Origin: Streptomyces sp. WM6386
Lineage (GTDB): Bacteria; Actinomycetota; Actinomycetes; Streptomycetales; Streptomycetaceae
Direction: 5' to 3'
DNA: 64,000 nucleotides
Assembly (NCBI RefSeq): GCF_000972385.1
Contig: NZ_JXTE01000013.1
Coordinates: forward strand, 62,001 to 126,000
The notes under the pieces were generated by a model. The model had not been told where the DNA came from. It ran no database searches and saw only the letters and a program-made list of their open reading frames with translations. Numbering within the stretch: the stretch's first letter is position 1; each line of letters opens with the position of its first letter. The position numbers and the translations under genes were made by a program. Positions 30,694-32,840 of this stretch are shown piece after piece.

Positions 30694-30718
30694 CATGACA
30701 CGAAAGGCACGTTGACGG

Positions 30719-30934
30719 GTGTTCCAGGATTCCCCCATCTATGACCGACTCATCGCGGAGCGCGGCGACGTCCCCACTCAGGTTCGCAGGGAGGCCGAGC
30801 GAGTCAGCAGGGAACTGGAGTTCGTCATGCAGCCCCTCCGCTCCATGGACCGCTCCCACTACGGAGAACTGCCCTCCGCGCCGCCCGCCCCGCAGTGGCA
30901 GCGGGCGGCCCTGCCCGGACCCGGGCAGCGGTGA
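30719..30934 (+). CDS. Small helical hypothetical protein
   Basis: A 71-residue soluble protein (VFQDSPIYDRLIAERGDVPTQVRREAER...). The first ~45 residues are predicted helical and charged; the tail is Pro-rich and disordered. GTG 30719 is the only sensible start; the ribosome site is weak. It ends three bases from the stop of the convergent tgmB gene. I do not know a function. Its position next to the peptide-maturase cassette is suggestive but unproven. Confidence 0.6.
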   Translation: MFQDSPIYDRLIAERGDVPTQVRREAERVSRELEFVMQPLRSMDRSHYGELPSAPPAPQWQRAALPGPGQR

Positions 30935-30937
30935 GGC

Positions 30938-31912
30938 TCAGGGGACCACGGTGTCCCTGCCATTGACGCGCCCCGCACCGTCCGGCACGGGCCGGGCCAG
31001 CCACTCGGCTATCGAGCGGGCGATCGGCTGACCCGTCTCCACCTCGACGAAGCCGAACTGCCCCGACTGATTGCACTCCAGGAACCACCACGTCCCGTCG
31101 GCGTCCTCGGCGAAGTCGAAGGCGCCGTAAGCCAGTTCGGCGTCGCGAACGTATGCACGCACCCCCTCGGCGACCCGTGGCGGGACGTCGGTGGGGCGCC
31201 ACGGAGAGGTGGGGGAGGCGAAACGGACGTCCACCTCGTCGTCCTCCGCGGTCGTCTTCCGCGCGGCCAGCATCCGGTCGCCCACCACCGTGAGCCGTAT
31301 GTCCGCCCGCTTGGCGACCCGCCGCTGCAGCAGCGTGGGACCGAACGCGACGGCGGAGAAGTCCGTGTCCGGCGTGACCCGGCTGGTCGGCACCGCCCTC
31401 GGCGGGTCCTGCGGATGCGCCCCGGAGACCGGCTTGACCACCAGGTCCGGATAGCGCGCGGAGAACTCGCGGGCGGCCTGCGGAAAGGTCGTGATCAGCG
31501 TGGCCGGCACGGGCAGCCCGCAGCGCTGGGCGTGCCGCAGCTGCCAGGGCTTGTGCCGGGCCCGACGGGAGGCGTCGGGGTGGTTCATCCAGCGCGCCCC
31601 CGAACTGCGGAGCATCCCGTACAGCGCCTGTGACGACTCCTCGGTCAGCCACCCGGACGGCTCGGCCGCCCGGGTGGCCGCGGTGCCCGGCCGCCGCACC
31701 CAGACGGACCGCAGCCCGTTGATGCTCACCAGCCGGCCCCCCGACGACAGATGGCCCCGGAAGGCGCCGTGCACGTACTCGCCCGACAGCGCCACCCCCT
31801 CGGTCAGGTCGGCGGGGTCGAGACGGACCACCGGAACCCCCGTCGAATTGAGGTGGACGACCACCATGTCGGCGGTGACATCCGCCTCACAGGTCAGAAT
31901 CAACACGGTCAT
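30938..31912 (-). CDS. tgmB: ATP-grasp ribosomal peptide maturase (graspetide ligase)
   Basis: ATP-grasp ligase of 324 residues of the SAV_5884/TgmB group, which builds side-chain ester or amide links in a ribosomally made precursor. Family features are the N-terminal MTVLILTCEADVTAD, ATP-binding VVKPVSGAHP, the substrate-side YGAFDFAEDADGTWWFLECNQSGQFGF, where Asp, Glu and Asn hold magnesium, and the phosphate-binding lysines in the middle domain. It starts 16 bases after the stop of tgmA, so both lie in one transcript. The PIMT-like methyltransferase (TgmC) that usually completes the cassette is absent here; the gene downstream is convergent and unrelated. Confidence 0.92.
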   Translation of the reverse strand: MTVLILTCEADVTADMVVVHLNSTGVPVVRLDPADLTEGVALSGEYVHGAFRGHLSSGGRLVSINGLRSVWVRRPGTAATRAAEPSGWLTEESSQALYGMLRSSGARWMNHPDASRRARHKPWQLRHAQRCGLPVPATLITTFPQAAREFSARYPDLVVKPVSGAHPQDPPRAVPTSRVTPDTDFSAVAFGPTLLQRRVAKRADIRLTVVGDRMLAARKTTAEDDEVDVRFASPTSPWRPTDVPPRVAEGVRAYVRDAELAYGAFDFAEDADGTWWFLECNQSGQFGFVEVETGQPIARSIAEWLARPVPDGAGRVNGRDTVVP

Positions 31913-31928
31913 CAGAGCCTGCCCGTGT

Positions 31929-32120
31929 TCAGTCGTCGAAGTGCGTCTTCGACCCCGCGGTCGAGGTCGTGGTCCCGAACTCTCTCAGCAGCGCGTGGTC
32001 GTGGGCGGCGATCCGCCCGTCCGAGAGCACGTTCAACTGCAGTCCGGTGTCGTAGGCGTACGGAGCGGTGACCTCCGACTCCGCTGCCGGACGTGCGTAG
32101 TTGAGCGCGAACGGTTGCAT
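31929..32120 (-). CDS. tgmA: Putative ATP-grasp target RiPP precursor
   Basis: A 63-residue precursor peptide. The N-terminal leader MQPFALNYARPAAE and the middle APYAYDTGLQLNVL match the actinobacterial ATP-grasp-target family as I know it. The C-terminal core FGTTTSTAGSKTHFDD is Thr/Ser-rich and ends in two Asp, offering hydroxyl donors and carboxyl acceptors for ester crosslinks made by TgmB. There are no cysteines, so it is not a lanthipeptide. ATG 32120 is preceded by GAGGGAGA. The gene is immediately upstream of tgmB on the same strand. Confidence 0.93.
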   Translation of the reverse strand: MQPFALNYARPAAESEVTAPYAYDTGLQLNVLSDGRIAAHDHALLREFGTTTSTAGSKTHFDD

Positions 32121-32298
32121 CGTCTCTCCCTCGTGGGTCCTGCGCCGATCCAGCGATGGTCACCTTGCGCCGTCGCTCGGGCCGCCGACTCCCGTCGGCT
32201 TCCTGAGACTTATACGAATCGAACGGGTGATTGGTTTCCTTACGCTGCGTAGTCATGGGCGGTTCATGGTCCGGACAATGGGGGAGACGTGGGCGAAC

Positions 32299-32574
32299 TC
32301 AGGCAGGTTCACTGCCCGAGTGCCTGCGCATCGTGCGCAACGCGAGCAGCAGGACGCCGATGTCGTCGAGGTACACGGGGTCGGGCACCAGGTCGGCCGG
32401 CAGGAAGAAGTACGCGAGAGCTCCCCAGAAGACCCAGCGCGGGCCGGTCGGAAGTCCGGCCTGCCGCAGGCCGCGCCGGGCCCGGACCAGTCGTACGAAC
32501 ACCGCGACGGCAACGGCGAGGACGGCCGCTGCGAGGAGCACGGCGACAGCGATCCATCGGGTGGTGGTGTCCAA
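32299..32574 (-). CDS. YkvA/DUF1232-type membrane protein
   Basis: A 91-residue protein with one N-terminal membrane segment (about 5-27) and the DUF1232 motif ALAYFFLPADLVPDPVYLDDIGVLLLAL, where the Pro-Ala-Asp-Leu-Val-Pro-Asp core is diagnostic. TTG 32574 is chosen because AGGAGGG lies just upstream and because further upstream residues are not family-like. It lies 178 bases upstream of tgmA on the same strand, but the gap makes co-transcription doubtful. Function unknown. Confidence 0.8.
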   Translation of the reverse strand: MDTTTRWIAVAVLLAAAVLAVAVAVFVRLVRARRGLRQAGLPTGPRWVFWGALAYFFLPADLVPDPVYLDDIGVLLLALRTMRRHSGSEPA

Positions 32575-32840
32575 CGGCCCTCCTCGTTCCGGTGCGCCCG
32601 CGAAGGGCGCGCGAATAACCGGATTCCCGCTCGGGGCGCCGGTATTGCCTGCCAGCGTCAAACCGGTGCACTCGAACACCAGTGGGAGTGGCGGGGTGGG
32701 GGTGCCGAAGCGGGAGTCATACCTGTGGCGCACCCGAGTGGCGCCCCCGGCGCGGACGCCCGGTAATGGTCACCGTAAGGTCGCGTGTCGCGCTTCGGGG
32801 ACGCAACAGCGGCCGCATCCCCTCGCTTGGAGAGCCGCGC

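Follow-up and report, generated by a model that had tools for sequence, protein, structure and literature searches.

Genes and features of the locus

The window, as the whole analysed stretch of 64,000 nucleotides is called here, carries a two-gene cassette on the minus strand; tgmA (pruA) comes first, and a gap of 16 nt separates it from tgmB (pruB) (Table 1). An earlier note on this DNA had described a 63-residue precursor ending in Asp-Asp with an ATP-grasp gene 16 bases on; it named no strand, and its coordinates and gene calls are correct. Profile searches likewise confirmed its assignment of the pair to the graspetides, as precursor and ATP-grasp ligase. TgmA matched PF14404 (Strep_pep) with 128.9 bits, covering positions 1–63 of the 63-position model, and TIGR04186 with 51.8 bits (cut-off 25). 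TgmB matched TIGR04187 with 393.4 bits (cut-off 350). These scores are far above chance level. The leader of TgmA contains the motifs PFALNYARPA and QLNVLxDGR, and the presumed core, TTTSTAGSKTHFDD, lies at its C-terminus. Also as noted earlier, a convergent gene follows tgmB; it is a 71-aa open reading frame that ends three bases from tgmB.

Table 1. Features at the tgmA–tgmB locus, with positions counted within the window
Feature	Position	Strand	Description	Family or structure match
tgmB/pruB	30938..31912	minus	324-aa ATP-grasp ligase	TIGR04187, PDB 9bou_A
tgmA/pruA	31929..32120	minus	63-aa precursor, C-terminal Asp-Asp	PF14404, TIGR04186
Promoter-like element AAGGAAACCAATCACCCGTTCGATTCGTATAAGTC	32207..32241	minus	35 bp, 86 nt upstream of the start codon of tgmA	
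BldD-box-like pseudo-palindrome CTACGCAGCGTAA	32240..32252	minus	5' edge of the 35-bp element	
Convergent 71-aa ORF	30719..30934	plus	downstream of tgmB; conserved neighbour, outside the cassette	
DUF1232 gene	32299..32733	minus	upstream; conserved neighbour, outside the cassette	PF06803

TgmB matched PDB 9bou_A with 577 bits, and its identity to 9BOU was 80% in Foldseek (chain A) and 82% in VIA-align (chain B). The 9BOU record is titled PruB from Streptomyces coelicolor A3(2). As TgmB is about 80% identical to this protein, the cassette is regarded as prunipeptin-type. The genome of WM6386 contains a single detected TgmB homologue, and TgmA had no sequence match in the PDB at E values up to 1. 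The fold of TgmB is also similar to that of the microviridin-type ligases MdnB/MdnC and of AMdnB, PsnB and CdnC (Foldseek E values of about 3e-25 to 2e-16), although identity in these Foldseek rows is only 20–25% and the precursors are different. Searches of the open literature for the core letters, 9BOU, PruB or prunipeptin biosynthesis returned nothing relevant.

Conservation of the precursor core and its predicted maturation

The last 15 residues of TgmA read GTTTSTAGSKTHFDD in 50 of 81 sequences, and the remainder differ at one or two places. Alignment of the 79 homologues that are 63 residues long revealed ten invariant positions (T51, S53, A55, G56, S57, T59, H60, F61, D62 and D63), so that the terminal Asp pair, preceded by Thr and Ser, is present in all 79. 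By homology to other ligases of this kind, the two Asp residues are probably the ester acceptors and the Thr/Ser residues the donors; a pair of acceptors would give two links. Both the ester chemistry and the ring count are thus projected from homologous ligases. Position 58 is Lys in 63 of these sequences, Ala in 10 and Gln in 6. Lys58 could turn one link into a lactam instead of an ester; since the residue is replaceable, a lactam is not required by the PF14404 family.

In none of the 81 sequences do the last 14 residues contain an Asp or Glu other than the final pair, which leaves no loop substrate there for a methyltransferase of the graspimiditide type. Asp24, Asp34 and Asp41, which are conserved in 78 of the 79 aligned sequences, are all located in the presumed leader.

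In the proposed pathway, TgmB would bind the conserved leader of TgmA and, with ATP, activate the side chains of the C-terminal Asp62 and Asp63. Thr/Ser hydroxyls of the segment TTTSTAGSKTH would then attack Asp62 and Asp63 to form up to two omega-ester rings. Maturation would proceed with no methyltransferase step, and the leader would be removed by an unlinked protease. The product of the 2021 prunipeptin paper is reportedly bicyclic, going by its title. As far as can be judged by that title, the predicted cross-linked peptide, lacking an aspartimide, fits prunipeptin.

Distribution of PF14404 pairs and their methyltransferases

Of 246 genomes from the genus, 136 have a PF14404 gene, 133 of them with a match above cut-off. 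In a sample of the order such genes were found in 148 of 293 genomes (144 above cut-off), belonging to two of nine genera. From at least 150 places, 80 PF14404 loci in 74 genomes were picked by hand, with both strong and weak matches included, and 14–16 kb were fetched around each. A ligase homologue adjoins the precursor in all 80. At one locus (L129, G218:C1:1285600-1301600) the frame of the adjacent ligase, as read here, stops after 43 codons; the copy may be broken, or the start may have been placed wrongly.

The earlier note had stated that known actinobacterial cassettes have a PIMT-like methyltransferase as third gene and that none is present in the window. The second statement holds: five valid queries found no homologue of the PIMT/TIGR04188 kind in the 64 kb. 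The first fails for this family, as the same queries, with a reach of about 6–8 kb either side of the pair, detected no methyltransferase homologue at any of the 80 PF14404 loci. These five queries did detect the methyltransferase in all 30 control loci, which were centred on strong TIGR04188 matches; 26 of these are independent detections, four of the loci being sources of queries. A second sample took the best 80 of 440 relatives, each with up to 3 kb of flank. TgmA was present in 80 of 80 and a methyltransferase match in none; these are the closest relatives, and their strains partly overlap with the 80 sampled loci.

A TgmB homologue is present at 28 of the 30 control loci (L052 and L069 are without one), and the control-locus ligases are about 31–40% identical to TgmB in the main aligned segments. 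Judged by sequence, the control loci are group 13-type cassettes with ligases in a separate clade. It is for group 13, the graspimiditides, whose ligases belong to that different clade, that the premise of a PIMT-like third gene is valid. According to PMC13001092, group 13 graspimiditides have a loop Asp in addition to the PIMT-like methyltransferase. A loop Asp used for aspartimide formation is usually followed by Gly. The known members (fuscimiditide, amycolimiditide, albusimiditide and SsfA) share a TIGR04187 ATP-grasp ligase with the cassette described here, and also the omega-ester chemistry predicted for it; the methyltransferase and the loop Asp set group 13 apart. Streptomyces prunicolor encodes three TIGR04187 ligases, two of them with a methyltransferase; only its PF14404 pair is without. 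The last 15 residues of its TgmA, GTTTSTAGSKTHFDD, are identical to those encoded in the window. By this exclusion, together with the titles of 9BOU and of the 2021 paper, we infer that prunipeptin is made from the PF14404 cassette.

The cassette could in principle be a group 13 graspimiditide cassette that has lost its methyltransferase, given that TgmB falls in the same broad family, TIGR04187. This origin is extremely improbable, because none of the 80 relatives carries a methyltransferase, the ligases that do stand beside methyltransferases are only about 31–40% identical, and within its last 14 residues the precursor has no further Asp than the terminal two. The earlier description of a cassette without "its" methyltransferase therefore does not stand, the methyltransferase-free pair being normal among the sampled PF14404 relatives. 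Nor can the suggestion of a new variant be maintained. Nothing seems to be missing from the locus: methyltransferases are absent from all 80 loci, Asp is absent from the last 14 residues apart from the terminal pair, PF14404 is already a Pfam family, and the structure of the ligase has been solved.

Methyltransferases elsewhere in the genome

The whole-genome search for a TgmC/PIMT homologue proposed in the earlier note was carried out and gave no TIGR04188 match above cut-off. Only the 380-bit cut-off was used as the test, as a TIGR04188 match at E 1e-3 is uninformative because all 14 control genomes yield one. The best match reached 259 bits and lies on a different contig (L010, G000:C31); it is a PIMT-like methyltransferase, and its gene has one for an FHA-domain protein and one for a bacterial globin as neighbours. 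The next match (L001, G000:C190) is an FxLD lanthipeptide methyltransferase fused to a Lant_dehydr_C domain in a protein of about 700 aa; it scored 451 bits against TIGR04364 (cut-off 320).

A methyltransferase acting on TgmA in trans might be sought among the 11 places in this genome over the PF01135 cut-off. Two of these score strongly, at 159.6 and 114.5 bits, and the other nine weakly, at 21–39 bits. One strong candidate, however, is the fused FxLD lanthipeptide enzyme. The other is the gene beside the FHA-domain gene, and its locus resembles the FHA-associated clusters described in PMC10787088. That paper reports 1410 such enzymes, encoded in conserved clusters with an FHA-domain protein gene as neighbour, a setting given there for enzymes without a tie to graspetides. 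Neither strong candidate passes TIGR04188, and no free Asp would remain in the last 14 residues of TgmA if both terminal Asp residues were esterified. Judged by these two candidates, action in trans is very improbable.

Membership of group 13 was rejected on two counts, namely that no TIGR04188 match adjoins the pair and that no loop Asp exists, none of the 81 precursors having Asp or Glu before the final pair in the last 14 residues. The characters of PF14404/PruAB are present: a full-length precursor match, a PruB-like ligase, and a C-terminal Asp pair after Thr/Ser. On this evidence, recent loss of a methyltransferase, a methyltransferase in trans and a new variant were all rejected. The sequence comparisons indicate, with little room for doubt, that this is an ordinary Streptomyces pruAB cassette for a graspetide of the prunipeptin type (PF14404), in which no methyltransferase is involved. 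It shares with PruAB of S. prunicolor and S. coelicolor the precursor family, the two-gene order, the high ligase identity and the lack of a methyltransferase alongside; the species and some leader residues differ.

Neighbouring genes and the conserved upstream element

Loci were termed close when their TgmB was at least 70% identical to that of the window (56 of 80) and distant when it was below this value (24 of 80). The convergent 71-aa ORF occurs at 32 of the 56 close loci and at no distant locus, and the DUF1232 gene at 42 close loci and one distant locus. At least one neighbour is common to the window and 43 close loci (Orf403 at 43, DUF1232 at 42 and AraC at 29), and the other 13 have no neighbour in common with it.

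The 35-bp element AAGGAAACCAATCACCCGTTCGATTCGTATAAGTC is matched at 27–35 of its positions in all 57 close loci, window included, and at 14–18 in all 24 distant loci. Eight distant PF14404 pairs (L143–L147, L150, L154 and L155), about 60% identical and in some genomes a second copy, have another common stretch upstream of tgmA, judged by eye. With up to two mismatches allowed, a degenerate pattern of the element was found in 87 of the 246 genus genomes, one copy each, and the reversed control gave no match among the matches listed. A regulon was considered for the element and rejected, as the genome of WM6386 has a single copy (at up to three mismatches) and so does each of the 87 carriers.

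The element is a putative promoter, and tgmA would be expressed from it. A scan for sigma-70 promoters over 30700–32800 called none, which is compatible with the element being part of the upstream gene instead. This alternative is unlikely, since the element keeps its place ahead of tgmA even where no neighbour is in common with the window, at 13 close loci (26–29 nt before the start in seven, 85–90 nt in six) and all 87 genus-wide matches precede a PF14404 gene on its strand, at 28–99 nt. The strict pattern GAAACC-N14-17-CGTA, which we take to be ECF-like, is present at 41 of 57 close loci and at four of 24 distant ones; as it covers only this part of the close loci, no sigma factor is claimed for the putative promoter.

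The pseudo-palindrome CTACGCAGCGTAA at the edge of the element fits five of the six fixed positions of TNACN5GTNA, the BldD box consensus given in PMC4151990. Among 83 distinct 54-mers, which are related sequences so that the counts are not independent, 44 fit six positions, 36 fit five and three fit fewer. Within these upstream regions the background rate is 0.013% for fits at all six positions and 0.11% for fits at five or more. Across loci the five middle bases vary and the arms stay. These features suggest that BldD may bind the palindrome; because the 54-mers are related, control by BldD is something that we infer. Literature searches on the upstream element, including the BldD regulon in connection with ATP-grasp, gave nothing relevant.

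Biological meaning

The cassette is a known and common system; the observation of a pair without a methyltransferase was correct, and the error lay in the argument built on the methyltransferase. In the PF14404 family the methyltransferase-free pair is the rule and not a loss, and therefore does not qualify as a new variant among graspetides. Only the upstream element with its BldD-box-like palindrome (32207–32252) may be new; across the searched genomes it is private to the cassette. The near-invariant core across the genus and this private promoter-like element with a BldD box at its edge prompt a tentative and rather doubtful reading, in which pruAB encodes a fixed, developmentally timed peptide, not an arms-race antibiotic, made once repression by BldD (c-di-GMP) lifts at sporulation. 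If the link to BldD is true, a very common Streptomyces peptide, for which no report of a role was found, could join the developmental programme.
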